This document shows, piece after piece, positions 49 to 43,526 of a stretch of 64,000 nt of DNA; within the stretch, counting starts at the first letter, position 1, and each line of letters opens with the position of its first letter. The translations under genes were made by a program, and so were the position numbers. The DNA is taken from positions 3,286,001 through 3,350,000 of the forward strand of contig CP094243.1 in assembly GCA_022749655.1 (NCBI GenBank), written 5' to 3'. The notes below the pieces were generated by a model. That model ran no database searches. It saw nothing but the letters and a program-made list of their open reading frames with translations, and was not told where the DNA came from. This DNA comes from Xanthomonas phaseoli pv. phaseoli (GTDB lineage: Bacteria; Pseudomonadota; Gammaproteobacteria; Xanthomonadales; Xanthomonadaceae).

Positions 49-2422
49 TCACGCCGACTCCAACACCCAGCACCCAAACGCCGGCCCTGCCGAGTAGCCG
101 GTCTCCGGCTCGATGCGGATCTGCAGGGTGGCGCGGCCGGCCACTGATGCGGGCAAGGGGTAATCGACATCGACGAACTCCAGGCCACTGTTGCCGTCCA
201 GGCGTTCGTTGGCGATGAGTTCGCCCTCGGCGAGGATGCGGAAGCGGCGGCGGGTTTCGTCGCCCCAGTAGCGTAGGCGCAGGATGCGGGCCTGGGCGGT
301 ATTGCGCAGGGTGAAGGCCATGAAGCCGCCAGTGCGCACGTCGCGGCCGGGCCGGCGGCGGTAGCTGAGCGGGTTGGAATTTTCCCCTGCAGTGCATGCG
401 CCTTTTCGGAGGCTTCATCGCCCAGCGCGATGCGATCGAGCGCGCGGGTGTCGAGTGCGTGCTGCGCTGCCGCTGCTGCCGCCCGTTCGGTCTGGCGTTG
501 CCGCCATGCGGCGGCGTCGCGGTGTTCCAGGTAAACCGCGCTGCGGCGGTCGAACTGGGCGTAGAACGGCGACAACTGCCATTGCTGTGCGCCATCGCTG
601 TAAGTAAATGCTGTCTTGCCCGGCACCGGCTGCAGGCGTTGCAGGATGTCCTGCCCCCGATCAATGTCGGGGTCTTGCCCGACCACGGCTTGGCGGCGTC
701 GCCCAGATCGACGGCGAGCACCAGCGGGCCGTGCAGCACCGACACCCAGGCGGGATCGTCCGGGGTCGCTTCCAGGCGCAGCGGCATGTCGAACGACAGC
801 TGGAGGGTATCGCCGGGCTGCCAGACGCGCGTGAGGCGTAGATAGCCATCGCTGGCGCTGCCATCGACAGGTTGGCCATTGAGTCGCAGGCGCGGTTGTT
901 GCGCCCAACCCGGCACGCGCAGTGCGAGCATGCGTTGCGCTGGCGGCGCGCCATCGATGCGCAGCGAGGCGCTGCCCTGCTCCGGCAAGGCGCTGTGCAA
1001 GGTCATGTTTAGTCCGGCGGCGTCGCGCACGGTGGAAGGCACGTACAAATTGATATAGACGCCCTGCCCGTCCTGCCAGTAGATGGAATCGCCGAACTGC
1101 GCGTGCGCTTCCATGCCGCTACCGACGCAGCACCAGAAATCGTCGAACGGCGACGACCAGCCGCGCGCTTCGCCGGCCAGCAGCGGCGTCATGTAGGTAA
1201 ACATGCCGGTGCGTGGATGCTGCTGTGCCATCACGTGGTTGAGCAAGGTGCGTTCGTAGTAGTCGAACAACTCCGCCTGCGGGCCCCATTGATACAGGTG
1301 GCGGGTGAGCTTGAGCATGTTGTAGCTGGCGCAATGCTCGCAGGTCTGCTCGGTGAGGAACTTCGAGATGCTGTCCGGCTGCTGGAAATATTCGCGGTCG
1401 CCATTGCCGCCGATGACATAGGTGTGGTGGTCGGTAACGGTGTGCCAGAAGAAGCGCGCCGCAGCGCCGGATGCGGCATCGCCGGTGACCTCGTACTCGC
1501 GGGCCACACCGATCAGCTTTGGGATGTTGGTATTGGAATGCTGGTGCGCCAATTCATCACGCTGTGCGACCAGCGGGTCGAGTACGGCGTGGTGATGCAG
1601 GCGCTGCGCCAGCGCCAGCCATTGTGCATCATCCGTACGTACATGCAGTTCGACGAACGATTCGTTGAGGCCGCCGAATTCGCACGACAGTACCTTTTGC
1701 AATTGCGCCTCGTCGAGCGCGGAGAAGATGCCCTGCAGATACCCGGCCAGATCCACCGCGACCTGCAGCGCCTGCGCGTCATCGCAATGCGCATGCACGT
1801 CGAGCAATCCGGCGAACAGTTTGTGCCAGGTGTATAGCGGTGTCCAGCTGCCGTTGAGGTAGAACGGCGCCGGGTCGATCTTGCCGCGCTTGAGCTCGTC
1901 GAAGACCTCGCGCCCACTCTCGATCTGCCCGGCCGCGTTCTTGCGCGTGAAGCCGGCCACGTAGCCATCGCCCGCATGTGCCTGGCAGCGCGCGAGTTCG
2001 CTGACAATATAGGCGGCGCGCGTGCGGCACTGCGCATCACCGGTTTGCGCGTGCATCAGTGCCAGTGCGCTGAGATAGTGGCCGAGCGTATGCCCGGCGA
2101 TGGTGTCCGCTTCCCAGCCGCCATAGGCCGGCGCCTTCGGGTCGAGGCCGGCATACAGCACGAAGTTGTGCAACAGCCGGTCCGGCTGCAGCCGCATCAG
2201 ATAGCGCCGGTTGGTCTGCAGCGCATCCAGGAACAACGACGGCGCAAGCCTGACCTGCGCAAGCGGCACCGCGCGCACGCTGCCCGGCTGCGCAGCGCTG
2301 GCCTGGGCCGGAAAGCGCAGGAAGCCGGCCGCAACCGCCAGGCTGCTCCAGGCCAGAAAGCGCCGTCGCGACAACGACGGCGTGTGGTTGCAGGTCGATT
2401 CGCTCGGGTGCGCTTCCGTCAT
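49..2422 (-). CDS. GH127 beta-L-arabinofuranosidase, exported (two frameshifts)
   Basis: Predicted to remove terminal beta-L-arabinofuranose, the sugar attached to hydroxyproline in plant extensins; GH127 is the HypBA1 family. About 791 aa once repaired. The N-terminus has a twin-arginine signal (SRRRFLAW, residues about 18-25) followed by a hydrophobic stretch. The family's zinc/thiolate centre is visible: Glu362 and Cys364 (in TCEHCASYN) and Cys431-Cys432 (in FWCCVGSG), with Cys431 matching the known nucleophile. The start is the ATG at 2422. The reading frame changes near 655 (a run of five G where six restore the frame) and near 383 (in GGGGAAAA). Conserved sequence continues across both, so I read them as sequence errors. 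The gene lies just downstream of a TonB-dependent receptor on the same strand. Family assignment is firm; exact substrate is inferred. Confidence 0.85.
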
Positions 2423-2569
2423 GGGATCAGCTTACCTCCTGAGAGCGCGCACGCTCGCGCGCGTGGTCGCAACACTGCGATCGCAACTGCCCTGGCAACG
2501 CTTGCGGTGACGTGGCATCTGCACAAGCGATCGCACCCGGCCACGCAGCGCAGCGAGACAACGGCGCAC

Positions 2570-5462
2570 TCAAAACTTCACCGTCGCGCGTGCCCAGTAA
2601 AAACGCCCGAGCAGATCGTAGGTGGCCACATCGGTGTTCGCATTGCCCACGTTATTGGAGTAATACAACGGCGGCTGCTTGTTGGCGATGTTGTCTACGC
2701 CGACTTCGAAGCGCGTATGCCACGGCTCCACGTTATAGCCAAGCTGCAGGTTGTTGTAGACGTAAGCGCCGATATTGCGCACCACGGTCGGTTCGCTGGA
2801 ATCGGCCGACAGGCTCTGGTCCGGATCCGAATTACCGATGGCGGTGTGGCCCACATAGCGGATGCGCCAGGTGGCGCTCCAGTCGTCCAGCGCCCAGTTA
2901 ACCGTGCCAAGTGCGCGCCAGCGCGGAAATTGCCGTAGGCCTGGGTGTAGCGGCCGACGTTGTGGATGGTGACCGAGCTGGGATCGGTGGTGTCGGGCAG
3001 CACGTCGTAACGGGTGAGATAGGTGCCGTTGAGGCCGGCGGTGACATTACCCCACGTCATTGCAGGCAAGCGGTAGGTCAGATTGAAGTCCATGCCCTTG
3101 GCCCACAGCTTGCCCAGGTTGACGGTGGGCTCGGCGATGTAATTGATGGTGCCATTGCCGTTGCGATGGATGAGCGCACAGAACGCGCTGGCGGAATTGG
3201 CGAAGCATTGATTGAGCACCGTCTGCGCCGACACCGTGGTGATGGTGTCTTCCAGGTCGATGCGCCACCAGTCCGCACTCAGCGACAGGCCGTCGATCCA
3301 TTGCGGGTCGTACACGAATCCGACGTCGTAGGACTTACCGGTTTCCGGCTTGAGCTGGTAGCCCGCCACTGCCGCGCCGGAGACCTTGCCCGACACCTGC
3401 CCGTCCGATTGCTGGTAGCTGCCGTCAGTGGGCACATTGGCGCAGGCCACCGTATTGCCGCCGGTATAGCCATTGCACGGGTCGTTGACCGTGGCCGCAT
3501 CGCCAGCTACGCCGGCATACAACTCGTTGATGTTGGGTGCGCGAAACACCTGAGAAACGGTGCCGCGCAGCAGCAGGTTTTCGATGGGGCGGTATTCCAG
3601 CGACAGCTTGCTATTGGTCTTGCTGCCCACCGAGCTGTAGTCGGAAAAACGCGTGCCCACGGTGATGTTCAGCGCATTGATGCCGGGCAGGTCCTTGAGC
3701 AGAGGGAACAGTGCTTCGGCATAGGCCTCCTTGACATCGAAACTGCCGCTCAAGCTGGACGAGCAGAATTCGATGACCCCGCACAGGCCGTTTTCATCAC
3801 CGGTCCATAACGGATCCGAAGCGGTGGTGGAGCGTTCCTTGCGGTACGAAATGCCCGCTGCCAGGCTGGCCTCGCCGGCCGGCAACGCAAAGAGCGTGCC
3901 GTTGGCATTGGCCTCGAATTGCTTGACCGTGTAAACGCTGGTGACGATCGGGTTGACCACCATGCCCTGCAACGTGGCCAGGTTGCCGCTGTCGTTGAGG
4001 TTGAAGAAATTCAACGGCGTACAGCCGGCAATCGCTGCGCCCGCACTGCCGCACTTGACCGTGCCGTCGCTGTCCAGGAACGAGGGGCCGATGGCCTGAT
4101 TGAACGCGGCATAGTCGAGAAAGCCGTTGTTGATCGACTTTTGCTTGACCTTGCCGTAGTTGAAGGTGGCATCCCATTGCCAGGAGCTGTCGCCGAAACG
4201 GCCGCGCAGACCCGGGCTGATCTGGAAGTTGTAGGTGTTGTACTGGTAACGGCGGTTGCCCAACACGGTGGCGCGCGTATTGAGGTCGTTGTAGGAGGTG
4301 CCGGTGGTGCGGTCGGTGCCGAAGTTGACGCCGAACGGGTTGTAGTAACTCTGCGCCGACACCAGGATGTTGTCGCCGTTGGAAAAAATCGGAATCGGCG
4401 CAATGATCGAAGCCGACTCGGTTTTGCTAAACCAGGTATTGACGTAGCCTTCGACGCTGTCGCTGAAGCGGTAGGTCCCCAGCAGGAAGGCGTTCGTGCG
4501 TTTTTGCGGGGTCTGCAACAGGTTGAACGGCTGATAGTTGTAGGAATCTGCAGCAGCGTTATAACAATGGAAATCGCCAGGACCTGCCCGCCCGCTGACG
4601 CCGCTGTTGAGGGTGACGCGCCCGCAACCATTGGATTGTGCAAGCAGCTGCGATTGATCCGACCCGTCATTGAAGTTCACTGTGCCGGTGGGCGTGGCGG
4701 AGGAGCCCTGCTTCACCGGTTGGCCATTGGTCAGCGCGAGCGCGTCCTTGAGTAGTCGCGCGCCGCTGCCGAGACGGCATCGATGTTGTGATACGACAGG
4801 CCGCCGATCAAGCTGCCGCGCTCCCAGGTCTTGCCGGCGGTCAAGGTGAAGTTGCGGCGGTTGCCATCGCCTTCGCTGCTGGTGCCGAAGTCGCTGCTGA
4901 ACTGCACGCCGTCGAAGCGCGAGCGCAGGATAAAGTTGACCACGCCACCGATCGCATCGGAGCCGTACACCGCAGACGCGCCATCGCTGAGCACCTCGAT
5001 GCGTTCGATCATGCTGGAAGGGATGGCGTTGACGTCGTTGTAGGCCAGCCGGATGCCGTTGACCAGCACCAGCGTGCGCTTGTCGCCCAGGCCGCGCAGC
5101 GAGATCGCCGAGGCGCCGGTGCCGCCGCCGTTGTTGGTGTAGGGATTGGTGGCATTGCCGGCGATGGATGGCAATTCCTGCAGCAAATCGCCCACGGTCG
5201 CCTTGCCGGTGGCAGCGATCTGCTCCTGGCTGACGGTGACCACCGGGTTGGCGGTTTCGGTGTCCACGCGGCGCAGGCGCGAGCCGGTGACGACCACGCT
5301 GTCCAGCGTCTGCGTCGCATCGCCACCCGCCGCCTGCTGCGCAGCCACCGGCGCGGCCGCACCTGCCGACAGCGCCAGCAACAGCGCGGAAGTGAGCATG
5401 CTCGGCAACGGCCGCGTGGTGGCGTTGGTCGTGCGGGAGAGAGGCAACGGCAACATCGGCAT
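2570..5462 (-). CDS. TonB-dependent outer-membrane receptor 1 (two frameshifts)
   Basis: Outer-membrane active transporter, probably for an oligosaccharide or glycopeptide released by the neighbouring hydrolases. About 964 aa once repaired. It has a signal peptide ending near AQQAAGG, a TonB-box-like LDSVVVTGSR, a plug domain (DLLQELPSIAG ... LVLVNGIRL ... IERIEVLSDGASAVYGSDAIGGVVN) and a long beta-barrel ending in aromatic Phe (RATVKF). The start at ATG 5462 gives MPMLPLPLSRTT and the signal peptide. Frame shifts near 4757 (AA for AAA) and near 2925 (CC for CCC on the coding strand) are each repaired by one base, and the barrel sequence continues through both. A spaced motif shared with receptor 2 lies about 270 bp upstream. 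Substrate is not determinable from sequence alone. Confidence 0.88.
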
Positions 5463-5955
5463 GCAAGGCTCCTGAGTGTGACGAAAGACAAACAGTGGGC
5501 AATACCTGCCCGTGCCGACGTACAGCGGCGCAGGGCGACGTAGATGGCAGACGCACGCTGCAACGAACCGCTGACACGGTCGTGTTGCAGACACGCACAC
5601 AACGTGCGACGCAGGCGACCGGAAAATCGCGCAGCAACGCGTATTGCCAGGAAGGTGGTGCATTCCACACTGGATGCGCGTTTGCGCTCCAGTTTTCATC
5701 AGCTGGTCACAATGTGCCTGTGCGCGGACGCTACGTCTTGTCGCATTTGGCGAACGCGCATGCGGAAAACAGCATGGTTCGCAACTGAACGATCATGCGT
5801 GGCGGCACGAGCGCGCTCGAGCCCGCACGCTTGCGCACTGCTTGCGGCGATTGGAGTGCAGATCAAGCTGACCAGGATCGCTGCGCGGACCGGGGCATCG
5901 GGCTGGGTGTGCCGCGCACGTCAAATCGACGCACGCGACCGGCAGCGTACGCGCA
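5463..5955. other. Intergenic region upstream of TonB receptor 1
   Basis: No convincing gene. It separates the end of the S9 peptidase from the start of receptor 1 and must hold the receptor promoter. The only structure I can single out is the spaced motif at 5734-5768. The leader between that motif and the ATG would be about 270 nt. Confidence 0.5.
5734..5768 (-). promoter_or_regulatory. Shared spaced motif, copy 1 (upstream of receptor 1)
   Basis: On the plus strand this reads CGTCTTG, 20 unmatched bases, then TGCGGAAA; on the gene's strand TTTCCGCA-N20-CAAGACG. Identical half-sites with identical spacing occur at 18020-18054 and 20644-20678, each upstream of a minus-strand gene for an exported protein. 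Copies 1 and 2 also share GCGCATGCGGAAAA and an internal ATTT. Bipartite conservation suggests an activator site or promoter; the factor is unknown. Confidence 0.5.
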
Positions 5956-8271
<2,316 letters not shown>

Positions 8272-8616
8272 GGCGGGGATCTGTGGCACCTGCGACCTCA
8301 TGGAAGCATTGGAAAGACAGTGTGGCGTTGATGGACGAAGGCCGAGCCGCTGGCGGCAACCGCTGCGGCAGACATACACCAAGGACGCTGCGGCAAGGCC
8401 GCCAGGGTGAGCAGATGCGACGGCTGCGCGGGGCGACACAGCTGCTTGCAATGTGGGGCAACGCACGTCAGCGCGCCTGAACCACTCGGGACACGGTTGC
8501 AAGGCACGCGCGGCCAGTGCGCAGAAGCCGATGCGTGATGTCCAGCCCATGCACTGCCCTGCTCGCGCACCCTGAGCCATCGTTCGATTGCCGCACGCGG
8601 CGCCTTGTCAGTTGCT
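8272..8616. other. Intergenic region, no gene seen
   Basis: 345 bases between the GH43 stop and the start of S9 peptidase 1. Reading frames here lack homology I recognise and overlap on both strands as expected for GC-rich DNA. It probably holds the S9 promoter; I could not identify elements. Confidence 0.4.
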
Positions 8617-10191
8617 TCACGGCGCATCGCAACGCGTGCTGTCGGCGGCCGCGGCAGATGGCAGCCGTTGTGGCTGTGGCGCCAGCACTTCCCATTCCTG
8701 CACTGCCAGCGCGGCGTAGCTGGCCGGGTTGCCGGAGGCGTCCATGACCACGCGCACACAGCGCGTTGTCACCGGCGCGAACGACACCGCTTCATCGTGA
8801 TCGGGACGCGTGCCATACCCATCGCGCGGCTGCACGGGCTGCCATCGCCCCGCGCTCCGGTATTCCAGATGCCAGCGCGCTGGCGGTGCCACGCCGACGT
8901 CGGCACCGGCCGGGTGGTCGGCCCAGAACACGATGCGCGTGCGATCCACGGTGATCGGTTGCGCCCAGCTGTACTGGATCCACTGCTGCGATGGGTTGTT
9001 GTCCGTCCAGCTGCCCCACATCTCCGGCGGCAAGGGATTGGCCTTGACGATGCCGTCGTTGAGCGCGGATATCCAGTACTGCACCGGGATATCCGGGCCA
9101 TTGGATGCGGTTGCATAGGCCGATGGCGCTTGATTGCGCGTGGGCGGCGCAGGTGGCATCGGACGCCGCGTCGGCACCACGGTACGGATGCTGGCCGGCT
9201 GGGTGCTGTCGTCCCATTCCAGCCGGTCGATCGCCACGCTGCGGCGGAAATGCCCGCCGCCGCGCGCATCGGCGGTGTGATACACCAGATACCACTGCCG
9301 CTGAAATTCGACGATGCCCGGATGCGAGGTGGTGGAAGACACCGGCGGCAATACGATGCCGCGATATGTCCACGGCCCCAGCGGGGTTGGCGCGCTCGCA
9401 TAGGCAATGCAGGCGTGATACAGCGTGGGCGTGCATGGCGAAAGACGCCCGGCGTTGTTGGCCGCATACGCCAGATAGTAGGTGCCGTTGCGCTTGAACA
9501 GCCAGGGCGCCTCGAAATAACCGTCCAGCGCGTCCACCAGGACCGGCGTGCCCTTGAAGCTGACCATGTCGCGCTGCAGCTCCACGCCGTACAACGCGCC
9601 GAAGGTGCCCCAATACAGATACGTCCGCCCGTCGTCGTCGACCATCACGGTCGGGTCGATGTTCTGGATGTCGTTGTGGACCGGCACCGACTGCGAGACC
9701 ACCGGGCCCTGCGGATGCGCGTCGGTCCACGGGCCGAGCGGACTATCGGCCACCGCCACGCCGATCGCGAATGGGTCGGCATTGGGCGAATCGCGCTGCT
9801 GCACCGGCGCATACAGGTAATAGCGCCCATCCGGGCCCTGCACGATCTGCGCGGCGTAGGCATGACGCTTGTCTGCCCAGGCAAAGACCTGCTGCGGCCG
9901 CAATAGATCGCGGTAGTGGGTCCAGTCGCCACTGGCCGGATCGCTGCTGACGAACAGTTGCCAGCCGGGCATGACGAACGCATTGAGATTCGGAGCAGCC
10001 GTATCGCGGCCAGCAATGATGTATAGCTTGCCATCGGCCACCAGTGGTGCCGGATCGGCGGAATATGTGCTGCCATCGGCGAGGATGGGATTGCCGGGTG
10101 CATGCAGCTGCGTTCCCTGCGGCGGCGGGATGGCGCAGGCCGGCGCGCTGGCCTGCGACAACCCGCCGGCCAGCACCGCAACAGAGAACAT
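8617..10191 (-). CDS. GH43 family glycosidase with C-terminal galactose-binding-like module
   Basis: Five-bladed beta-propeller glycosidase, family GH43 (xylosidase/arabinofuranosidase/arabinanase/galactosidase group). 524 aa with signal peptide (MFSVAVLAGGLSQASAPACA). Candidate catalytic residues are Asp46 (SADPAP), Asp179 (QNIDPTVMVDDDG) and the general acid Glu227 (GYFEAPW). After the propeller (to about residue 350), residues about 380-510 form a discoidin/galactose-binding-like domain resembling one in the next upstream protein. An in-frame GTG at 10200 overlaps the upstream TGA as GTGA, so translational coupling from GTG is a real alternative to ATG 10191. It is probably co-transcribed with the large hydrolase upstream. 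Family is sure; substrate (arabinose side chains suspected from context) is inferred. Confidence 0.87.
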   Translation of the reverse strand: MFSVAVLAGGLSQASAPACAIPPPQGTQLHAPGNPILADGSTYSADPAPLVADGKLYIIAGRDTAAPNLNAFVMPGWQLFVSSDPASGDWTHYRDLLRPQQVFAWADKRHAYAAQIVQGPDGRYYLYAPVQQRDSPNADPFAIGVAVADSPLGPWTDAHPQGPVVSQSVPVHNDIQNIDPTVMVDDDGRTYLYWGTFGALYGVELQRDMVSFKGTPVLVDALDGYFEAPWLFKRNGTYYLAYAANNAGRLSPCTPTLYHACIAYASAPTPLGPWTYRGIVLPPVSSTTSHPGIVEFQRQWYLVYHTADARGGGHFRRSVAIDRLEWDDSTQPASIRTVVPTRRPMPPAPPTRNQAPSAYATASNGPDIPVQYWISALNDGIVKANPLPPEMWGSWTDNNPSQQWIQYSWAQPITVDRTRIVFWADHPAGADVGVAPPARWHLEYRSAGRWQPVQPRDGYGTRPDHDEAVSFAPVTTRCVRVVMDASGNPASYAALAVQEWEVLAPQPQRLPSAAAADSTRCDAP

Positions 10192-10196
10192 GCGTA

Positions 10197-24770: not shown

Positions 24771-24881
24771 GGCCCTGCAGAAAACACGAAGACCTTGAGT
24801 GCGCGGCATCCTTGTCGCTCGCAGGACACGCCGTGCACACAATGCAACTGGTCGACGACCGTCCTCGTGTAGGCCAACCGC

Positions 24882-25178: not shown

Positions 25179-25400
25179 GATGGCTCCGCTGTAGAAACTG
25201 AGAACTAACCGATGACGTTTGTTGACAACCCACCAACACACTTGCAGCTGGCAACCGCGTTCTACTGCTTTGGCACTCGCATCAACAAATAAGTGTCAGG
25301 GGCACTGCTCGGAACACTAGAACCGGCGGACAGCAGCCGCAATGTCCTGCCCAGCTCGTCGATTCCCCAAACACCCGCCTTACAGGCGCGTCACGCGCGC

Positions 25401-30935: not shown

Positions 30936-31109
30936 GGTGCCCCTCATTGAAAAGGTTGTCGCCGGTTCCCAACTACTGCAGCTGTTCCCTTCTCCCTGCG
31001 GAAGAAGGTGCCCCGGAGGGGCGGATGAGGGTGCGCGCATAGCCTCGTGTCCTTCGACACTGCGCAGCTTCGCGCCGGACCCTCACCCCAACCCCCGCTC
31101 TGCGCCCCG

Positions 31110-31170
31110 GCCCGCGCTTGCGGCGCGGGCGCTCAAGGCACGCGCGCCAGTGGCGCGCAAACTGTGCCTT
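31110..31170 (-). terminator. Tandem hairpins after the DUF885 operon
   Basis: Two strong stem-loops lie 35-95 bases past the DUF885-1 stop. At 31135-31170 AAGGCAC pairs with GTGCCTT, enclosing an inner GCGCGCC/GGCGCGC stem. At 31110-31130 GCCCGCG pairs with CGCGGGC. No clear U-tract follows, so this may be a rho-associated or attenuator structure between two operons. Confidence 0.4.
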
Positions 31171-31204
31171 CTCGCCCCAAAGGCAGCGGGGCTTCACAGC
31201 ATTG

Positions 31205-34846: not shown

Positions 34847-34961
34847 GCATTCACTCCAAGATGCAAGGACCGCGGTAGGGGCGCGCCTGAGCGCGAATGG
34901 CGTTACCTGGCAATGCCCGTCGCGCCGGGTGCGCTCTACGCGTGCGTGAACCTTTGCAGGC

Positions 34962-36160
34962 TCACGCAAACGGTTGATCGATCGCCACCGACGGCGGCGT
35001 GAACCACTGCGCGCCATCGTCGGTCACGTGGAAATGGTCTTCCAGGCGCACGCCGAACTGCCCCGGCACCACGATCATCGGCTCGTTGCTGGCACACATG
35101 CCCGGCTGCAACGGCAGCGCATTGCCGCGCACCAGGTAAGGCGCTTCGTGAATCGCCAGGCCGCAACCGTGACCGGTGCGATGCGGCAACCCGGGCAGCC
35201 GGTAGTCGGGCCCGAGCCCGGCTGCTTCCAGCACCTTGCGTGCCGCCTGGTCCACCGCCTCGCATGCCACGCCGGGGCGGATCGCTGCGAATGCCGCCGC
35301 CTGCGCGGCCTGCTCCAGGTCCCAGATGCGCTGCTGCGCGTCGTTGGCCGCACCATAGATCCAGGTGCGGGTGATGTCGGAGTGGTAGCCCTGCACGGTG
35401 CAGCCGGTGTCGATCAACACCATCTCGCCCTCGCGCAGGTGCTGCACGCCCGGGATGCCGTGCGGAAACGCAGTGGCGTGGCCGTACTGCACGATACAGA
35501 AGGTCGATCCGTTGTCGGCGCCCAGCGCGCGATGCGCCTCGTCGATGAAGCGCACCAGTTCATCGGTCCCGAGCCCTTCGTGTGCGAGACCGGCCGCCAG
35601 CCGTTGCACCAGCAAGGTCATATCGCACGCCTGCTGCATCAATGCCAGCTCGGCCGGCGACTTGCACATGCGGCAGCCATCGATGATCGCGCCGGCATCA
35701 CGGATCGCCTTGCCCAGATGCGCGCGCAGGCCGGTGTGCACGGCGAACGCAATGCCCGGGTCCAGCGCCAGGGCGTGCGCATGGCGCTCGTCCATGGCCT
35801 GTACCACCAGTGCATACGGGTCGTCGTGCTCTTCCCACAGGTATTTGGTCACCGGGATCTTCAGCACCGCATCCAGCGAGCCTTCCTCGAACATGGGGCA
35901 GAGCAACACCGCATCGCCCTCCAGCGTCAGCAGCAGGGCCACCAGACGCTCGCTCGCCCCCACGGCACACCGGTGAAATAGCGCAGCGACGTGCCGGCAC
36001 CGATCAACAGCGCATCCACGCCATGCGCGCGCATGAGGCTGCGTGCACGCTCGATGCGGCGCTCGTATTCGTCCGTGGCGATCGGCGCGGCGCGCCGTGT
36101 CCACGGCGCGAGTTGCTTACGCGCTTGCTCCACCGACAGCCCGCCGATCTGGCTGCTCAT
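34962..36160 (-). CDS. M24 family Xaa-Pro-type peptidase (one frameshift)
   Basis: About 399 aa once repaired. A creatinase-type N-domain (RIERARSLMRAHGVDALLI) and pita-bread C-domain show all five metal ligands: the two Asp of LIDTGCTVQGYHSDITRTW, His of PHRTGHGCGL, Glu of ASNEPMIV and Glu of VRLEDHFHV. Cytoplasmic, as no signal is visible. The frame shifts near 35960, where five G occur and six are needed. Its ATG at 36160 overlaps the stop of the aldehyde dehydrogenase (ATGA), so it belongs to the hydroxyproline operon. An Xaa-Pro or Xaa-Hyp dipeptidase feeding free hydroxyproline to the pathway is the economical reading; specificity is inferred. Confidence 0.85.
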
Positions 36161-37773
36161 GCGCCGGCTCCAAGATCGGCGGTGCTCCATTGCCCGTCGA
36201 CCAAACGCGCCACGCCGCCCGGATTGCGCTGGCGCAGTTCGGCGGGCAGCAGTGCGTCGGGTACCGCGTCGTAGCTGTGCAAGGCGGCAAACCGGCGGAT
36301 GGCGCCGGGCATGCCCACCGCCGTGAAGCCCGGATGCCCGGTGCTCGGGAACGGTCCACCGTGGTTCTGCGCCGCGCTCACGGCCACGCCGGTTGGCATC
36401 TTGCTGTTGATCAACCGCCCTACCCGCGCGCGCAACACCGGCGCGATGGTCTGCCACGCGGCATCGTCGCGGCCGTCGGCCGCGCGGTACAACGTGCCGG
36501 TCAGGTTGCCTTCGAACGCGGCAGCCACCTGTGCCATCTGCGCCACATCGGCTGCGCGCACCAGCAGGCTCACCGGGCCGAAGGCTTCGGCCTGCAGGGC
36601 ATGCGGGTTGGCCAGGAAGGCATGCGCATCCACGCTCAACAAGGTCGGCGCATAGCGATAGCCGTCCTCGCCGGTGTGTCCGCCGGCCAGCATGCTGGCG
36701 CCGGCGGCACGCAGGCTCGCCACACCACGTTGCACGCCTTCCACACCAGAGGCGGAGAACAGCACCATCGGCATGGCCGCTTCGAAATGCGCCTTGGTGG
36801 CCGCCACGAACGCATCGCCAACCGCGCCATGCGGCACCACCACCACGCCGGGATTGGTGCAGAACTGCCCGCTCCCCAGCGTGCAGGAGGCGAAGAAGTC
36901 CTGCGCAAGCGCGTCGCCGCGTTCGGCCAGCGCGCCCGGCAACAGGAAGACCGGGTTGACGCTGGAAAGCTCGGCATAAAACGGCACGCCCGCCGCGTCT
37001 GCGGCCGCCTTCAGTGCCAGCCCGCCGGCACGGCTGCCAGTGAATCCGATCGCGCCCAGCCGCGCATCGCCCGCCAATCGCAGGCCGATGGCAGTGTCGA
37101 AGTGATACAGCAGTTGCACCGCCGCCGCAGGCAGACCGGCCGCGACCAAGGCCTGATGCGCGAGCTGCGCCATGCGCTGGCTGGTGGCCGGATGCAACGG
37201 ATGGGCCTTGGCAATGACCGGGTTGCGCGCGGCAATCGCCGAGGCGAAATCGCTGCCGGCAATCGCATTGAAGGCGAACGGAAAATTGTTCGGGCCGAAC
37301 ACCAGCACCGGTTTGCCCAGCGGCGCCAGGTGCGAACGCAGATCTGCCGCGCTGTCGATGATGGGCTGGGTCCAGCTGTAGCTGCGCACGGCCTGTGCGG
37401 CCTGCCGCAGTTGTCCGCTGGTGCGCGGCAGTTCGTTACCGCGCAAGCGTGTGGGCGCCGGCAGCGCCGTCTCGGCATGCGCCAGCGCGACCAGGGTATC
37501 GGCGTCGGCATCCAGCGCGTCGGCGTAGCTCTCCAGAAAGGCAGCGATCCGCTCCACCGGTGCGGCCGCCAACTCCGCCGCGACTGCCTGCGCCGCCGCC
37601 ACGGCCGCTTCCACATCGTCCGCTCCACTGACCGGAAAGTGCGGCCCGATCGGTTCGCCGGTGGCCGGGTCGGCAGCGCGGAAGCTGCCGGTGGCGGCGC
37701 GGCTGACTTGCCATTGCCCTGCCAGCAGGATCTCGGCTGCGGCCGCGGGAATGGAGTGGTTCGTATCGTTCAT
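36157..37773 (-). CDS. lhpG: 2-oxoglutarate semialdehyde dehydrogenase (hydroxyproline type)
   Basis: 538 aa NAD(P)-dependent aldehyde dehydrogenase converting 2,5-dioxopentanoate to 2-oxoglutarate, the last step of trans-4-hydroxy-L-proline breakdown. The catalytic Cys305 (SGQFCTNPG) and Glu268 (YAELSSVNP) are in place, as is the coenzyme segment GFTGSRAGG. The FGPNNFPFAFN stretch matches the KGSADH subgroup linked to hydroxyproline or glucarate pathways. Start ATG 37773. It sits between the deaminase gene (211-base gap, so possibly its own promoter) and the M24 peptidase (ATGA overlap). Symbol follows Pseudomonas usage and is provisional. Confidence 0.85.
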   Translation of the reverse strand: MNDTNHSIPAAAAEILLAGQWQVSRAATGSFRAADPATGEPIGPHFPVSGADDVEAAVAAAQAVAAELAAAPVERIAAFLESYADALDADADTLVALAHAETALPAPTRLRGNELPRTSGQLRQAAQAVRSYSWTQPIIDSAADLRSHLAPLGKPVLVFGPNNFPFAFNAIAGSDFASAIAARNPVIAKAHPLHPATSQRMAQLAHQALVAAGLPAAAVQLLYHFDTAIGLRLAGDARLGAIGFTGSRAGGLALKAAADAAGVPFYAELSSVNPVFLLPGALAERGDALAQDFFASCTLGSGQFCTNPGVVVVPHGAVGDAFVAATKAHFEAAMPMVLFSASGVEGVQRGVASLRAAGASMLAGGHTGEDGYRYAPTLLSVDAHAFLANPHALQAEAFGPVSLLVRAADVAQMAQVAAAFEGNLTGTLYRAADGRDDAAWQTIAPVLRARVGRLINSKMPTGVAVSAAQNHGGPFPSTGHPGFTAVGMPGAIRRFAALHSYDAVPDALLPAELRQRNPGGVARLVDGQWSTADLGAGA

Positions 37774-37983
37774 GAAGGCACCTTCGGTAACAGGGAAGCA
37801 GGACCTGCGCTCGGTGCGCTGGCGGCCGGCCAACAAAACGATGAGGATGCAGCACTGGATGCCACATCCGCATCGGCCAACGCATCGCAGCGCGCGCAGG
37901 CAAGGCGCGTGCTGCGAATCGGCACAACTGGCACCCTGCGCTCACCTACAGCGACGACGGACCAGGGCAGCATCAGTGCGCCA

Positions 37984-38892
37984 TCAAGGCAATGTGGGCG
38001 CGGTGGCGATGGCATGGTCGATCACCTTCAACGCGGCATCGCGCTCGGCGCCGGCCACCACCAGGCGCGGCGCACGCACCTGCTCGCTGCCCATGCCCAC
38101 CTTGGCCTGCACCAGTTTGATCAGCTGCACGAACGTAGGCACCGTGTCCAGGCGCAGCAGCGGCAGGAACCAGTGGTAAAGCTCCCTGGCCGCCGGGTAT
38201 CCGCCATCGCGGGCGAGTTCGAACAGGCGTACCGATTCTTTCGGATACGCATTGACCAGGCCGGCGATCCAGCCCTTGGCGCCCATGCTCAGGCCCTCGA
38301 CGATGGCATCGTCCATGCCCACCAGCAGCGCCAGGCGATCGCCCAGCAATTCCTGCAGCGCGGCGAAGCGGCGCACGTCACCGGACGATTCCTTCACTGC
38401 CTGCAGGTTCGGGAATTCGGCGGCCAGCTCGGCGATCTGCGCCGGGCCGAAATCGGTCTTGTAGGCGACCGGGTTGTTGTACAGGATCACCGGCAGATCG
38501 GTGGCGCCGATCACCGCGCGCACATGCGCGCCCATTTCGCGCCAGTCGGTGGAATACACGTACGGCGGCAGCACCATCAAGCCGCCGCAGCCAATGTCCT
38601 TGGCCGCCTTGGCCAGCGCCACCGCTTCGCCGGTGGCCAGGCTGGCGATGCCCGGCACCACCGGCACGCGGCCGTTCAAGGCGGTGACCAGCGTGCGCAG
38701 GATCGCCAGCTTGTCTTCCACGCTCAAGGTCGCGGCCTCGCCCAACGAGCCCAGCGGCACGATCGCGGTGCAACCGGCATCCACCAGTTGATTGGCGTGC
38801 TTGCCGAGGAAGTCGTGGTCGATCTCGCCGTTGGCGGTGAACGGAGTGGTGATGGCCGGCAGCACGCCGTGCCAGAACGCAGCATTGCTCAT
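37984..38892 (-). CDS. lhpC: 1-pyrroline-4-hydroxy-2-carboxylate deaminase (DapA superfamily)
   Basis: 302 aa (beta/alpha)8 aldolase-fold enzyme. In this context it deaminates and dehydrates 1-pyrroline-4-hydroxy-2-carboxylate to 2-oxoglutarate semialdehyde. The Schiff-base Lys167 (LQAVKESSGD) and Tyr138 (LYNNPVAYKT) are visible, with a GSLGEAATL loop in place of the GTTGE of true DapA. A role in lysine synthesis is unlikely given the neighbours. Start ATG 38892 overlaps the stop of the dehydrogenase alpha subunit (ATGA). Frame intact. Confidence 0.86.
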   Translation of the reverse strand: MSNAAFWHGVLPAITTPFTANGEIDHDFLGKHANQLVDAGCTAIVPLGSLGEAATLSVEDKLAILRTLVTALNGRVPVVPGIASLATGEAVALAKAAKDIGCGGLMVLPPYVYSTDWREMGAHVRAVIGATDLPVILYNNPVAYKTDFGPAQIAELAAEFPNLQAVKESSGDVRRFAALQELLGDRLALLVGMDDAIVEGLSMGAKGWIAGLVNAYPKESVRLFELARDGGYPAARELYHWFLPLLRLDTVPTFVQLIKLVQAKVGMGSEQVRAPRLVVAGAERDAALKVIDHAIATAPTLP

Positions 38893-40201
38893 GGATGTTT
38901 CCCTTGCGAGTCGGAAGTGAACGGGTCGGCCAGCGCCGCGAGGCGGACCGGAAACAACGGCGGCCGGCGGCCGGCGTCGGTGGAAAGATCGGGCGGGCAA
39001 CGCCCCAGCTCGGCCAGCGCAGCGCCGCAGATGCGGCCCTGGCAGGCGCCCATGCCGCAGCGCGAGGCAAGCTTGGCGTCGCGCGCATCGGTGAAGCTGT
39101 CCAGGGCGGCCAGCGGTACGTCTTCGCAGCGGCAGATCAACGTGTCCGCCTGCGCCAGGGTGCGGATGCGCGGGTCAAGCGCGAATTGCCGCTGCAGCAG
39201 GTCGGCAAACGCACGCGCGGCGTGACGCCGTGGCTGCAGGCGCAGCGCCGCCTCCGGTGCATCGGCGGCCATATGCCCGGCCATCGCCCCTTCGATCACT
39301 GCGCAATCGCGCCCGCCGATGCCGCAGACTTCGCCGGCGGCAAAGACCTGGTTAACGCTGGTACGCAACAGCGCATCCACCTGCACCTGCTGGTGCGCGC
39401 CGTAGGCTTGCAGCTGGCAACCCAGCAATTGCGCAAGTTCGGTGTTGGGCACCAGGCCATAGCCCACCGCCAGTTGATCGCAGGCAAGACGCGTGCGGCC
39501 GCCGGGCCCGGCGAGTTCCACTTCGCGCAGTTGCGTGTCGCCATGCGCGGCAATCACGATGCTGCCGGCGCGATATGCCACTGCACGCAGCTGCAGGCGC
39601 AACGCCACCGCCTGCGCAGCCTTGCCCGGCCAGCGCCACAACTGCAGTGCGAACTGGCGCAGGGCGGCCGGGGAGGTTTGTTCGTGAATGCTGAGCACGC
39701 GCGCGCCATGCCGTTGCAACGTGGCCGCACTGGCCAGCAACAACGGGCCACTGCCGGCCACCAGCACGCGCTTGCCCGCCAGCGGCCAGCCCTGCTTGGC
39801 CAGCGCCTGCGCCGCGCCGGCACCGGTGACGCCGGGCAAGGTCCACCCGGGAATGGCAGCAGCAGTTCGCGCGCACCGGTGGCCAGCACCAATGCGGCGT
39901 AATGCAGCTGCAGCGTGCCGTCGGGGCCATCGGCCAGGAGCCAGCCCGGTTGCGCCAGCAAGATCTGCGTGCGCGTCAGCACGGTGATCGATGCATTGCC
40001 AGCCACTTGCTGCAGCAATGCGCGCGCATCGGCCGGCCCGCCGTGTTGCACATCGCTGCGCCACACCTGACCGCCGGTACGTGGCTGCATGTCGACCATG
40101 CCGACGCGCACGCCTTGGCTGGCCGCCGCCTGCGCCGCCGCCAGCCCGGCCGGGCCGGCGCCGATCACCAACACATCGAAATGCAGCGCGCGCTCAGCCA
40201 T
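38889..40201 (-). CDS. D-hydroxyproline dehydrogenase, FAD/BFD-like alpha subunit (one frameshift)
   Basis: About 437 aa once repaired. The N-terminal dinucleotide fold (VLVIGAGPAGLAAAQAA) and a second nucleotide motif (VLVAGSGPLLLASA) place it with the pyridine-nucleotide-disulfide oxidoreductase-like subunit of bacterial D-hydroxyproline/opine dehydrogenases. The C-terminus has a four-Cys Fe-S motif (ICRCEDVPL ... SRCGMGACQGRIC). The frame shifts near 39852 in TTCCCGGGTGG, one base short. It overlaps the small 2Fe-2S subunit by 8 bases and the deaminase by 4, a tightly coupled operon. Function as part of a three-subunit enzyme is inferred from gene order and family. Confidence 0.82.
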
Positions 40202-40439
40202 CGGTGCGCACCTGCATGCCATCGCATGCGTCCACCAGGCAGGCGCGTTGCTGTCCCACGCCGTCGATGCGCACGCGGCATTCGAAACACACGCCCATGC
40301 CGCACAGGGGCGCGCGCGCTTGCCCACTGCTCGATTGCCGAAACTGCAACGTCGCCTGCGCCACTGCCGCCGCCACGCTGGCACCGGCCGGCACCTGGAC
40401 CATGCGCCCATCCACGTGCAGACGCACCGTTGCGCTCAT
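40194..40439 (-). CDS. D-hydroxyproline dehydrogenase, small 2Fe-2S ferredoxin subunit
   Basis: 81 aa ferredoxin-like protein. The cysteine pattern C-G-M-G-V-C-F-E-C followed by a later C (RACLVDAC) fits a plant-type 2Fe-2S cluster as in the gamma subunits of heterotrimeric D-hydroxyproline or opine dehydrogenases. Its start overlaps the beta-subunit stop (ATGA), and its end overlaps the alpha subunit by 8 bases, so stoichiometric synthesis by coupling is likely. Electron transfer between the two flavoproteins is the expected role. Confidence 0.85.
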   Translation of the reverse strand: MSATVRLHVDGRMVQVPAGASVAAAVAQATLQFRQSSSGQARAPLCGMGVCFECRVRIDGVGQQRACLVDACDGMQVRTDG

Positions 40440-41712
40440 GCGGGCGCGCCTTGCACGGCACGCGCCGGTGCGTAGGGCGCCGGGTCGATGGCCGGGGTGC
40501 GCCCGAGCAGGCTGTCCACGATCACCCGCGCGCTCCCCAGCGCCGTGGTGACCCCCAACCCCTCATGACCGGCGGCCACCCACACATCGCGTCGGCCGGG
40601 CACCACCCCAAGTACGGGCGCCCGTCCGGCGTGGCCGGACGCAGGCCGGTCCACACGCGGATCGCCTGCAGCTCGCGCAGCACCGGCAGGTACGCAAAGG
40701 CGCGCTGCAACATCTGCTGCAACACCGGCATCGAGACTTCGCGGTCGTGCTCGCCGAACTGGCGCGAGGAACCGATCAGAATCTGCCCGGTGGGCCGCGG
40801 TTGCACATTGAAGGCCACGCTGGTGTCGTCGGCCCCATGCGCCGAATCCGCGTAGCCCAGTTCCAGCAGCTGATGCCGGATCAGCCCCGGGTGCCGGTCG
40901 GTGATCACCAAATGGCCCTTGCGCGGGCGCAATGCCAGCTCGGGCAATAGCTGCGGCAAGGCCACACCGCTGGCCACCAGCACCGGCCCGGCGAGCATCT
41001 GCCCGTCGTCCAGACGCACCGCATGCTCCTGCAGCTGCACCACGCGGCGGCCGGCAAACACGCGTGCACCGGACGTGCAGGCCGCGCCGACCAGGTGGCG
41101 CGCGACCCGCGGCGGATACACCACCGCTTCATCGGGCACGCGCATGCCGCCAGCCAGCCCGGGCACCAGCTGCGGCTCCAGCGCATACAGCTGCGCGGCA
41201 TCCATCGCTTCGGCATGCAGGCCGGCCGTTGCCAGGCGCGCGATCTTGGCTGGCACTGCCGCCAGTTCGCGCGCATCGCGGGCCACCCACAGCGTGCCGC
41301 AGCGGCTGAATTCGGCGTCGCCGAGCGTGGCAAAGCGTTCCCATAGCCGCAGCGAATACGCCGACAACGCCAGCTCGGCCGGGTCGTCGTCCATCGCCAC
41401 CAAATGCCCCATCGCCGCGGCGGTGGCGCCACCGCCGATCGGCCCCGGCTCGACGATCGCAACGCGAAGGCCCTCGCCCGCCGCGGCTTCCGCGCAAGCG
41501 GCGCCCACGATGCCGGCGCCGATCACGATCAGGTCGTAACTGCGTCGCGTGTATCCGGCAGACGTAGTGGACCCGGATCCGGCAACCGCAGCCAATCCAG
41601 GCGCCGCTGCCGACGCGTGGGTTGCAGCAACAGTCCCTGCCATCGCAGCAGACAGTGCTGCGCCAGGCGGCGTGACCGACGCAAGCACCGGCGCGGGCCG
41701 CTGGGGTTCCAT
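40436..41712 (-). CDS. lhpB: D-hydroxyproline dehydrogenase, FAD oxidase (beta) subunit (one frameshift)
   Basis: About 425 aa once repaired. DAO-family flavoprotein (DLIVIGAGIVGAACAEAA; C-terminal RPATPDGRPYLG ... VAAGHEGLGVTTALGSA) that oxidises cis-4-hydroxy-D-proline to 1-pyrroline-4-hydroxy-2-carboxylate. The C-terminal flavin motif is read only after a one-base repair near 40607 (four G where five fit). The start at 41712 shares a base with the epimerase stop (TGATG). It leaves about 58 Ala/Ser/Thr-rich residues before the Rossmann motif, so a later start is possible. The subunit follows the epimerase directly, matching the order of reactions. Confidence 0.83.
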
Positions 41713-42650
41713 CAGGCCACGATGCCCCAGGCGAACGGGTCCGCCGGGTCGATCACCAGTTGCGCGCGCGCGGTGATGTACGCCCGCCCACTGATGCGCG
41801 GTGCGATGCCGCGCCCGCTCAGCCGATAATTGCCTTCGAAGGCGCTGCCCAGAATGCCTTGCTGCACCCAGCGCTCGCCTTCGGCCAACTTGCCGTCCGC
41901 CGCCAGGCAGGCCAGCTTGGCGCTGGTGCCGGTGCCGCACGGCGAACGGTCATAGGCCAGCCCCGGGCACAGCACGAAATTGCGCGCCACCCCGCTACCG
42001 TCGGGCGCAGCGCCGTTGACTTCGATATGGTCGATCTCGCCACCGGCCTCGCCGGTGATCCCGGCCGCTTCCAGGGCCAGCCGAATCGCCTCGGTATAGG
42101 CGGTCAGCGCGCGCTGGTGCGCCAGGTCCAGCGCGCACGGCGCATGCTCGGTGATGAAGAACCAGTTGCCGCCCCAGGCCACGTCGCCGCGCACCCGGCC
42201 ATGCCCGGGCACCTCCACTTCCACCCCGCTGGCAAAGCGATAGCTCTCGACATTGTCCACCGACACCGTGCCGTCCTCGGCCAATGCCACCCCGACCGTT
42301 CCCACCGGTGTCTCGATCCGGTGCTGGCCCGGCCCGATGCGCCCCAACGCGGCCAGCGTGCGGACCACCCCGATGGTGCCGTGCCCGCACATGCCCAGGT
42401 AGCCGACATTATTGAAGAAGATCACCCCGGTGCAGGCGCCTGGGTCGCGCGCGGGCAGCAACAAGGCGCCCACCATGGTGTCCGACCCACGCGGTTCGCA
42501 CGCGATGGCGCTGCGCCAGTGGTCGAACTCGTTGCGAAAGCGTTCGCGGCACTGCGCCAGATCGCCATCGCCCAGATCTGGAAAACCGGAAAGGACAACG
42601 CGGGTAGGCTCGCCAGCCGTGTGGGAGTCGATGACGTCGATGGTGTGCAT
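41712..42650 (-). CDS. lhpA: 4-hydroxyproline 2-epimerase
   Basis: 312 aa proline-racemase-family enzyme that converts trans-4-hydroxy-L-proline to the cis-D isomer, the first step of the pathway. Both catalytic cysteines are present: Cys88 (GMCGHGTIG) and Cys238 ([10 protein letters not shown]). That Cys/Cys pair separates epimerases from the Cys/Thr dehydratases. Start ATG 42650 gives the family opening [17 protein letters not shown]; an in-frame ATG five codons earlier (42665) is less likely. First gene of the operon, divergent from the PAS-AraC regulator. A palindrome and a degenerate copy of the shared motif lie 30-70 bases upstream. Confidence 0.9.
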
Positions 42651-42679
42651 GCCCCATGCTCCCACTGCCGACCTGCGGG

Positions 42680-42720
42680 CGACTAGCGTTCAATGCCAAG
42701 TGAAAATGCGGAAATCCGCA
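42680..42720. promoter_or_regulatory. Hydroxyproline promoter: palindrome plus degenerate shared motif
   Basis: TGCGGA-AA-TCCGCA at 42707-42720 is an inverted repeat with 6-bp arms, in the 159-base gap between lhpA and its regulator. Plus-strand CGACTAG at 42680-42686 followed by N20 and TGCGGAAA repeats the spacing of the CGTCTTG-N20-TGCGGAAA motif, with 5 of 7 matches in the first half. It is a likely operator for the adjacent AraC-type protein. Confidence 0.45.
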
Positions 42721-42809
42721 CAATCACCACCCCAATCACGACCACGCGTTTGCGCTAGGATCATTGCTGGGCTGCACCGTCGTGCAACCGTCTAATCGTG
42801 ACCGCTACC

Positions 42810-43526
42810 ATGACCCTGATGGACCTCAACCTGCCCGCCCTGGAAATGCAGACGCTGTTCGATGCACTGCCGGATGTGGTGTTCTTCATCAAGGATAGCG
42901 AGGGCCGCTACACCCATTGCAACCTGACCCTGGTGCGCCGGCTGGGACGCAAGCTGCGCAGCGAGATCATCGGCCGCTCGCCGCTGGAAGTGTTTCCGTT
43001 GCCGCTGGGCGGCAGCTACATGATGCAGGACCGCCGCGTGCTGTGCGGCGAGCTCATCGACAACCAGCTTGAAGTGCACCTGTACCCCAACCGCCTGCCG
43101 GGTTGGTGCCTGACCTTCAAACGCCCGCTGTGCGAGGCCAATGAGGTGATCGGCGTGGTCGGCATCTCGCGCGACCTGGGCCAGCCCGACAGCCGTCATT
43201 CCGCGTACGAACGCTTGAGCCAGGTCATGGACCACATGCAGGCCAACTTCGGCGACAACCTGCGCGTGCAGAGCCTGGCCGACCTGGCCGGGCTGTCGGT
43301 GGCGCAGCTGGAACGCCACTTCCGCCGCGTGTTCCAGGTCACCCCGCAGCAATTGCTGACCAAGTTGCGCATCGAATCGGCGATGCGGCTGCTCTACGGC
43401 GACGACAGCATCGCCAGCATCGGGCAACGCTGCGGGTTCGCCGACCAGAGCGCCTTCGCGCGCCAGTTCAAGGCCACCGTCGGTATGACGCCGCGCGATT
43501 ACCGCGCGCTCAAAGGTCAGTTGTAA
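42810..43526 (+). CDS. PAS-domain AraC-family transcriptional regulator of hydroxyproline genes
   Basis: 238 aa. Residues about 10-125 form a PAS-like sensor (LFDALPDVVFFIKDSEGRYTHCN). Residues about 140-238 are a double helix-turn-helix AraC domain ending with the family signature (CGFADQSAFARQFKATVGMTPRDYR). Divergent placement next to the epimerase strongly suggests it activates the hydroxyproline operon in response to hydroxyproline or a pathway intermediate; equivalent AraC-type regulators are known beside such clusters in pseudomonads. The start may be ATG 42810 or the in-frame GTG at 42798; neither has a clear ribosome binding site. Frame intact. Confidence 0.86.
   Translation: MTLMDLNLPALEMQTLFDALPDVVFFIKDSEGRYTHCNLTLVRRLGRKLRSEIIGRSPLEVFPLPLGGSYMMQDRRVLCGELIDNQLEVHLYPNRLPGWCLTFKRPLCEANEVIGVVGISRDLGQPDSRHSAYERLSQVMDHMQANFGDNLRVQSLADLAGLSVAQLERHFRRVFQVTPQQLLTKLRIESAMRLLYGDDSIASIGQRCGFADQSAFARQFKATVGMTPRDYRALKGQL

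Follow-up and report, generated by a model that had tools for sequence, protein, structure and literature searches.

A conserved Xanthomonas gene cluster predicted to join deglycosylation of hydroxyproline-rich plant proteins to hydroxyproline catabolism

Plants armour the hydroxyproline-rich proteins of their walls with arabinose. Hydroxyproline (Hyp) itself is converted to 2-oxoglutarate by an established pathway of epimerase, dehydrogenase, deaminase and aldehyde dehydrogenase. Three enzymes of Xanthomonas euvesicatoria have been shown to degrade Ara4-Hyp completely when acting together, and the bacterium is reported to be unable to use L-arabinose (PMC6085000; this and the other papers are cited for individual passages). 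Joining Hyp catabolism to polymer breakdown is also a known kind of system, a collagen version having been predicted in Alteromonadales (PMC5343134). The present study concerns a window of 64,000 nucleotides, that is the whole stretch at positions 3286001-3350000 of a contig of Xanthomonas phaseoli pv. phaseoli (genome of 5.33 Mb, 3 contigs). A preliminary description of it, made from the sequence alone, had proposed that arabinosidases, peptidases and a Hyp catabolic operon in the window together serve the utilisation of plant Hyp-rich glycoproteins, and had named no work joining such arabinosidases to Hyp catabolism; among the open-licence papers covered by our literature search we likewise recognised none. 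Our data indicate that the locus, which comprises some twenty genes, is a conserved cluster and quite likely one regulon, controlled by a PAS-AraC protein, which would turn glycosylated Hyp-rich plant proteins into 2-oxoglutarate.

Gene order was compared in a genus set of 35 Xanthomonas genomes. It was found that 4-hydroxyproline 2-epimerase (4HypE) is present in 35/35, the GH127-type arabinofuranosidase and TatU, an exported protein without family match, in 34/35 each, and the GH121 arabinobiosidase in 24/35 (overall, 29 of the 61 genomes examined were positive for GH121). The single genome in which none of GH127, TatU and GH121 was found has a completeness of 81%. Among the 34 genomes that have both GH127 and 4HypE, 27 carry them on the same contig, at a distance of 24.5-45 kb; for TatU and 4HypE this holds in 28/34, at 16.3-24.5 kb. 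GH127 and TatU share a contig in 33/34 genomes and GH121 and TatU in 23/24. All remaining pairs, on different contigs, belong to fragmented assemblies of at least 110 contigs, and the linkage on which the preliminary description depended was thus borne out across the genus. Ten genomes carry TatU without a GH121 match, the gap between TatU and GH127 being 3.6-6.4 kb in nine of them and 15.5 kb in one (G019). GH121 and its neighbour GH43 are therefore an optional module.

The cluster was also followed beyond the genus set. Rows of tblastn were dropped below 80 bits in the surveys of 4HypE loci (Fer2 was kept in one), below 90 bits in the cluster maps, below 60 bits in the flank control and in the search for GH127 near 4HypE, and below 45 bits in a check of Acidobacteria. 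The 4HypE survey comprised the best 80 of 575 loci. At least 9.5 kb of downstream sequence was available at 74 of the 80, and an M24 peptidase gene was found in 47/74, while M24, DUF885 or S9 peptidase b stood on the same strand within 11 kb in 51/74. TatU was sought in 40 genomes with 4HypE, of which 12 matched, one with short partial matches only. The 11 full matches comprise 10 Lysobacterales genomes and one of Acidobacteriaceae, and in 10/10 of the Lysobacterales TatU lies 8.7-20.3 kb from 4HypE; three of these are named Xanthomonas and were reached outside the 35-genome set. Compact one-strand clusters holding most of the cluster genes occur in Stenotrophomonas, Pseudoxanthomonas, Luteibacter and Dyella. 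In S. rhizophila the order on one strand, within 21 kb, is GH127, TatU, GH35, S9 peptidase b, APC permease, DUF885b, DUF885a, M24 and the Hyp operon, and GH127 begins 11 bp after TatU; some other intergenic gaps could not be read, as the open reading frames (ORFs) of the window have false N-terminal extensions. Luteibacter and Dyella acidiphila keep the genes from 4HypE to aldehyde dehydrogenase, DUF885, TatU, GH127 and a TonB receptor, and gave no match for the APC permease, S9 peptidase b and GH35. A GH127-family gene was also found within 20 kb of 4HypE in two Luteimonas, Dyella jiangningensis and one Acidobacteriaceae genome.

As a control for plain synteny, 15 proteins encoded on the other side of 4HypE in the window were searched for in 20 kb of that side in six genomes (Stenotrophomonas, three Pseudoxanthomonas, Luteibacter and Dyella). 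No match above 60 bits was obtained in five of the six; in the remaining one the matches were limited to two histidine-kinase fragments at 44-47%. In these relatives the cluster side of 4HypE is kept and the opposite side is not.

Another line of evidence is a promoter element. Alignment of the regions upstream of 4HypE revealed a 19-bp element, with the block TTRTGCnnAnTTCCGCAT, which is called here the Hyp box. It is present upstream of 4HypE in 56/80 loci, 57-76 bp before the 4HypE match (123 bp in one). The Hyp box was found in 52 of the 54 loci with an AraC homologue of at least 60% identity within 1.5 kb, in 1/8 loci with a weaker or farther homologue and in 3/18 with none. Since 52/54 loci with the regulator carry the element, against 4/26 of the others, the PAS-AraC protein is the likely reader of the Hyp box.

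A weight matrix was built from the 35 distinct 4HypE sites only and run against the window and a further 17 clusters, so the 4HypE sites, as its source, prove nothing alone. In the window the box at 4HypE (42705..42723, minus strand) scores 32.2 bits with an exact core at 42707-42720. The box at TatU (20669..20687, minus) lies outside the training sites and scores 23.7 bits, with an exact core at 20671-20684, and it sits between TatU and the divergent S53-type peptidase gene, in an intergenic region common to both. No other site in the window scores as high as these two. The core TGCNNANTTCCGCA occurs in the window at exactly these two places, against 0.04 expected, and none of 100 shuffles had two. 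A genome background of 800 kb, taken as forty 20-kb samples, gave five sites of at least 13 bits, one of at least 15 and none of at least 17 (the top site had 16.3 bits), and the exact core once. Upstream of TatU (-350 to +10) a site of at least 13 bits was found in 13/15 clusters and of at least 18 bits in 11, and GH127 has a Hyp box of at least 13 bits upstream in 5/17 clusters. Several clusters have one upstream of TonB receptors too; the rows for TonB, S9 and DUF885 genes may name a paralogue. Eight genes inside the Hyp/peptidase operon gave a Hyp box in 0/116 upstream tests, and GH121 and GH43 gave none in eight upstream tests each. We predict a single regulon, served by two promoters or more, that includes both the Hyp operon and the deglycosylation block. 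The co-regulation of blocks that the preliminary description had named as a test is in this way predicted from the element common to 4HypE and TatU, but does not extend to the GH121-GH43 part, which is without the element. As they have no strong site of their own, the window genes between TatU and GH127 would need read-through or other control. A palindromic site resembling the Hyp box (43561-43579, 15.9 bits) was observed behind the PAS-AraC gene and before ftsY; it is nearly the same in the other Xanthomonas clusters G002, G007, G022 and G034 and could be a terminator or a weak operator.

The linkage, the tighter clusters without the opposite flank and the common promoter element support the reading of the locus as one for Hyp-glycoprotein utilisation. 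Domain calls on the window ORFs were made by Pfam and NCBIfam scans, and every activity and family named in the preliminary description was found at its position. Two things had been overlooked in it, namely the protein without family match encoded at 18245-20641 and, next to the PAS-AraC gene, the common promoter element. The cluster genes stand on the minus strand, from 42.7 kb to the left window edge, except for the S53-type peptidase gene and a DUF5694 gene at about 21-24 kb.

The complete trans-4-hydroxy-L-proline catabolic enzyme set is found in one cluster. 4HypE (41712..42665, minus; PF05544; ATG near 42650) is nearest to 4juu of X. campestris (E 5.3e-197), which is named a 4HypE in PMC4113996, and both cysteines of the CG[HT]G motif are present, with NCBIfam scores below the cut-offs (415.6 vs 442 bits for NF010577, 411 vs 450 for NF052296). 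The enzymes after the epimerase, all on the minus strand, have predicted roles which rest on family and position: the DAO subunit of an FAD-dependent D-hydroxyproline dehydrogenase (40522..41940, PF01266), its 2Fe-2S subunit (40194..40439, PF13510), an NAD/FAD oxidoreductase subunit in two frames (38889..40411, with PF07992 halves in 38889-40064 and 39554-40411), a DHDPS-type deaminase (37984..39000, PF00701) and an aldehyde dehydrogenase (36157..37836, PF00171), predicted to act on 2-oxoglutarate semialdehyde, which reached the cut-off of none of the NCBIfam models listed. The adjacent regulator, divergent from the operon, is not a HypR-type GntR protein; it is the PAS-AraC protein (42798..43526, plus; PF08448, PF12833).

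TatU (18245..20641, minus; ATG near 20593) carries a Tat signal and has no sequence match in Pfam, NCBIfam or PDB, where only the Tat signal and chance rows below cut-off appeared; CAZy was not searched. Its structural model (pLDDT 84.1, pTM 0.87) predicts an (alpha/alpha)6-barrel glycosidase. E466, D468 and E657 are invariant in 58 aligned sequences and also in a set of 10 that includes distant ones. The protein is 99% identical to one of X. citri. A remote GH121 or GH127 identity was rejected, as the profile comparison gave probabilities of 0.3 and 4.9 (with shallow alignments of 8 and 45 sequences), and TatU has the fold alone in common with these families. GH121 and GH142 were not named among the 50 TatU fold matches listed by VIA-align, which excludes nothing. 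Among 274 genomes of Gammaproteobacteria at large a full TatU match was found in one, the window genome itself, and short partial matches in four. TatU is a probable new enzyme family. A wider proposal, which we offer tentatively, is that it is the first member of a new (alpha/alpha)6 glycosidase family acting on Hyp-linked sugars of plant wall proteins, replacing GH121 in species without it, within a PAS-AraC-controlled Lysobacterales system rewarded by Hyp. In an Acidobacteriaceae locus (L128:357-3218), a DUF5695 protein and a large outer-membrane barrel protein are encoded upstream of the TatU homologue.

The beta-L-arabinofuranosidase at 2..2422 (minus; PF07944, E 8.4e-138) has a twin-arginine signal and runs off the window; its open frame in the genome is 817 aa. 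It had been called GH127 in the preliminary description, and the catalytic domain is of that family, but its nearest PDB chains are of GH146 type. The best relatives are 5opj (391 bits, E 1.2e-115), which we take to be the GH146 enzyme BT0349, and 8k7y (165 bits), GH146 by its title, whereas the GH127 chains (4qjy, HypBA1) score at most 72 bits. The Cys3-Glu zinc site is represented by E-x-C and CC motifs, and the aceric acid hydrolase model NF049879 gave 72.5 bits of a cut-off of 950. Going by the best PDB chains, without a tree, the enzyme is GH146-type, and GH127 was replaced on these scores together with PMC10850190, in which X. euvesicatoria XCV2724 is filed in GH146. By family and gene order rather than by the XCV sequence, the window gene would be the counterpart of XCV2724.

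The GH121 beta-L-arabinobiosidase of HypBA2 type (10415..14553, minus) has a main frame at 11524-14553 and a continuation, with a frameshift near 11.7 kb. It matches NF041578 with E 1.1e-270 and 901.6 bits over model positions 14-956 of 1709 (the cut-off is 3200 and the gene is split), and 6m5a with E 1.5e-209. In the 6m5a alignment, read by hand, catalytic acids are conserved at positions 372, 490 and 704, those of HypBA2 being E383, D515 and E713 (PMC7263609). The frames are 1430-1575 aa in the remaining 23 GH121-positive genomes of the genus set, with one stop inside the match in G023. Next to it lies a HypAA-type GH43 with an F5/8 C domain (8617..10722, minus; PF04616), in the gene order of PMC6085000, and elsewhere in the cluster a GH35 family enzyme with DUF5597 (25401..27587, minus; PF01301, PF18120), which scores 475 bits against NF051902 (cut-off 500).

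GH121 is the only gene for which a plant-inducible-promoter (PIP) box of the consensus TTCGB-N15-TTCGB was found, TTCGC-N15-TTCGT (14707..14731, minus), followed after 30 bp by TATGGT, which fits YANNNT. This -10 element does not match TYNNNT as printed in PMC5146329. A PIP box before GH121 is known in X. euvesicatoria, where HrpX dependence was measured (PMC6085000, PMC5146329). Within 500 bp upstream of GH121 the box was not found in 7/7 relatives examined, because of which HrpX control looks lineage-specific and is not supported as a general rule. A second PIP-like site (30839-30863) is put down to chance, the looser pattern being found twice with 1.49 expected.

The peptidases and transporters are spread over the cluster. 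On the minus strand are an M24 Xaa-Pro-type peptidase (34962..36104; PF00557, PF01321) in which no signal peptide was seen; a DUF885 lipoprotein peptidase a (33032..35017; PF05960, lipobox FTAC, HExxxGH), which matches the 3o0y lipoprotein with E 5.5e-85; a DUF885 protein b in two frames (30973..32900; PF05960 halves in 30973-31968 and 31770-34850, HExxxGH); an APC-family amino-acid permease (29364..31040; PF13520); S9 peptidase b (27038..29491; PF00930, PF00326, signal peptide, GxSxG), with dipeptidyl peptidase IV (DPP IV) chains 5yp1 and 2ecf as the nearest solved ones; S9 peptidase a (5956..8580; PF00930, PF00326, signal peptide); TonB-dependent receptor 1 (2695..5670; PF00593); and TonB-dependent receptor 2 in two frames (14918..17856; PF07715 in 15868-17856, PF00593 in 14918-15970). 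The S53-type pro-kumamolisin peptidase (20937..22616, plus; PF09286, PF00082, GTSA motif) is divergent from TatU. A DPP IV of S. maltophilia is active on a 4-hydroxyproline substrate, by a reference title in PMC5807507.

Taken together, these genes suggest the following route. Secreted or Tat-exported glycosidases would strip the glycan, with GH43 and GH121 taking Ara4-Hyp to Ara1-Hyp and the GH146-type enzyme freeing the arabinose that is left. The X. euvesicatoria enzymes have been shown to have these activities (PMC6085000), and the same is presumed for the window strain. TatU is predicted to be one more glycosidase in this group, and GH35 would remove galactose. The bared chain would then be cut by the S53-type peptidase and its peptides imported through the TonB receptors. 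Judging by families and targeting signals, release and uptake of Hyp would fall to the periplasmic S9 and DUF885 peptidases, the APC permease and, in the cytosol, the M24 peptidase. The epimerase, the FAD/2Fe-2S dehydrogenase, the DHDPS-type deaminase and the aldehyde dehydrogenase would then convert Hyp to 2-oxoglutarate. The reward would be Hyp and not arabinose, because L-arabinose isomerase (araA), the one arabinose route covered, was not found in 35/35 genus genomes, with 5/14 control genomes positive. We infer that PAS-AraC binds the element, that the blocks are co-expressed, that peptides pass the TonB receptors, that TatU acts on Hyp-glycans and that the substrate is of plant origin. 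As the published mutants kept virulence, the role is read as nutrition and not attack.

A number of observations weigh against this reading. A TatU match is missing in 28 of the 40 genomes with 4HypE, and a GH127-family gene, present in 15 of the 19 genomes searched, was shown to be near 4HypE in only 4 of the 15. It should be noted here that related genomes are not independent samples. A link of TatU to Hyp genes in Acidobacteria was not supported: in G070 the TatU and epimerase genes are on different contigs, and G553 has only epimerase-like pieces (32-49%) on a contig apart from TatU. A GH127-family gene is near a TatU-like gene in three of the six Acidobacteria-type genomes, as a contig-end fragment in G070, on the opposite strand in G553 and as a 27% relative in G489. 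In the window, GH127, GH121, GH43 and S9 peptidase a each lack a Hyp box. The weak box before TonB receptor 1 (5759..5777, minus; 13.3 bits, the same sequence in G007, G022 and G034) does not rise above the genome background, and neither do the TatU sites of G035 (15.4 bits) and G036 (13.9); in G049 and G037 no Hyp box was found upstream of TatU. S9 peptidase b is without the double-Glu motif (EE) of DPP IV (S9B), which binds the substrate N-terminus (PMC5807507), and its dipeptidyl activity is doubtful for that reason. In X. euvesicatoria, deletion of the three arabinosidases left symptoms unchanged and the mutants pathogenic, and the authors ask why the enzymes are kept and suggest that the genes are disappearing and may now be useless; they also report that a GH121 homologue carries a pseudogene annotation in X. 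phaseoli and that the S9 gene beside GH43 has a frameshift in X. euvesicatoria (PMC6085000). A sugar-import system shared with bifidobacteria has been suggested instead (PMC7263609).

It could be argued that the Hyp-peptide operon and the arabinosidase locus are neighbours through chromosome conservation and functionally unjoined. Synteny within the genus proves little by itself, as 18 of the 67 loci with at least 5 kb upstream also retain ftsY or mutY next to 4HypE, 13 of them Xanthomonas loci (L032-L044) and five outside these (L051, L055, L057, L059, L069). In addition, GH121-GH43 is served by a separate HrpX-type promoter without a Hyp box. We nevertheless regard this explanation as improbable, for the cluster side stays, even tighter, where the 15 flank proteins were not found, and the promoter element is common to both blocks. 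An explanation of about the same low likelihood assigns the Hyp/peptidase operon to collagen-like or free Hyp, and the sugar genes to arabinose-containing wall polysaccharides or to sugar import. Some kumamolisin-type peptidases are collagenolytic. Moreover, in many Dyella, Rhodanobacter and Lysobacter loci the Hyp operon is accompanied by M24 or DUF885 but has neither TatU nor GH127 within about 10 kb, collagenases belong to HypR regulons elsewhere (PMC5343134), and import of an arabinose disaccharide has been suggested (PMC7263609). Against it stand the element shared by TatU and, in relatives, GH127, the lack of any collagenase family except the S53-type gene among the ORFs scanned, and araA, which was not found for the use of arabinose.

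A different question is which glycoprotein is used. The cluster could serve arabinogalactan proteins (AGPs) or several Hyp-glycoproteins more than extensin, with GH35 and TatU acting on galactose-rich Hyp glycans; we see this as a lesser possibility, though one well ahead of the two just weighed, and it is compatible with the regulon and changes the substrate only. A GH35-family gene is in the cluster, 10 of the 34 genus genomes that carry TatU gave no GH121 match, and a bifidobacterial GH146 enzyme acts on AGP (PMC10850190), whereas the X. euvesicatoria enzymes act on Hyp-arabinosides (PMC6085000). The substrate may be extensin, as in the preliminary description, AGP or any Hyp-glycoprotein. 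A PAS-AraC-controlled regulon for glycosylated Hyp-rich plant proteins remains the preferred reading.

Frames are split or overlapping in GH121, TonB receptor 2, DUF885b and the NAD/FAD oxidoreductase. Elsewhere in the window three more genes are broken across frames or cut short, namely ftsY (43630-44964), dxs (57983-59281) and a PAS histidine kinase gene (48139-49562). The splits probably stem from assembly indels, because ftsY and dxs are affected as well, GH121 forms long single frames in relatives and genome completeness is 90.46%. GH121 was not concluded to be a pseudogene in the window genome, with ftsY and dxs split in the same assembly; some real decay in the living strain may nevertheless have occurred, in view of the pseudogene and frameshift reports of PMC6085000. 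The DUF5694 gene (22922-23971), between the S53-type gene and GH35, has two matches in the G022 cluster. To the left of the cluster, mutator-type transposase and rve integrase genes (L138:8740-9966, L138:14154-15701) were observed, with a ShlB-type two-partner secretion gene beyond. An HNH endonuclease gene (56271-56927) with weak PADLOC matches to PtuB and Cas9 HNH domains looks like a lone HNH protein.

The system of X. euvesicatoria (XeHypBA1, XeHypAA and XeHypBA2; XCV2724, XCV2728 and XCV2729) has the same three enzyme types as the window, and the PIP box before GH121, the GH121-GH43 operon and the S9-type gene beside GH43 are common to both; Hyp catabolism, TatU and the PAS-AraC element, present in the window, are unmentioned in the abstract, the first part of the Results and the Discussion of PMC6085000. 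If our reading is true, a joint regulon with Hyp catabolism gives the Xanthomonas arabinosidases a purpose that was previously left open. Bifidobacterium longum likewise uses GH121 and a beta-arabinofuranosidase (HypBA2/HypBA1) on Hyp-arabinosides, but the aim there is sugar import by an ABC transporter (PMC7263609), whereas in the window it would be an amino acid. For Latescibacteria, degradation of Hyp-rich glycoproteins was proposed in silico, with GH127 for extensin, and those genomes also encode transporters for sugars and peptides; the product said to be used is arabinose, and the passages of PMC4454575 mention neither Hyp catabolism nor a shared regulator. Pseudomonas LhpR is a dedicated regulator of Hyp catabolism and transport, in whose reference title, our sole source, glycosidases are absent. 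The HypR regulon of Alteromonadales likewise unites, by prediction, Hyp catabolism with polymer-degrading enzymes, peptidases including prolidases and a TonB transporter, but it has a GntR regulator and collagenases (PMC5343134), whereas the window combines PAS-AraC with a different operator and with plant-type glycosidases. TatU, a conserved exported protein that had no name, is put forward as a likely new glycosidase, and a candidate regulator and operator are named. What would be new here is a plant-glycoprotein variant of such systems that differs in its regulator and operator and includes a probable new enzyme family.

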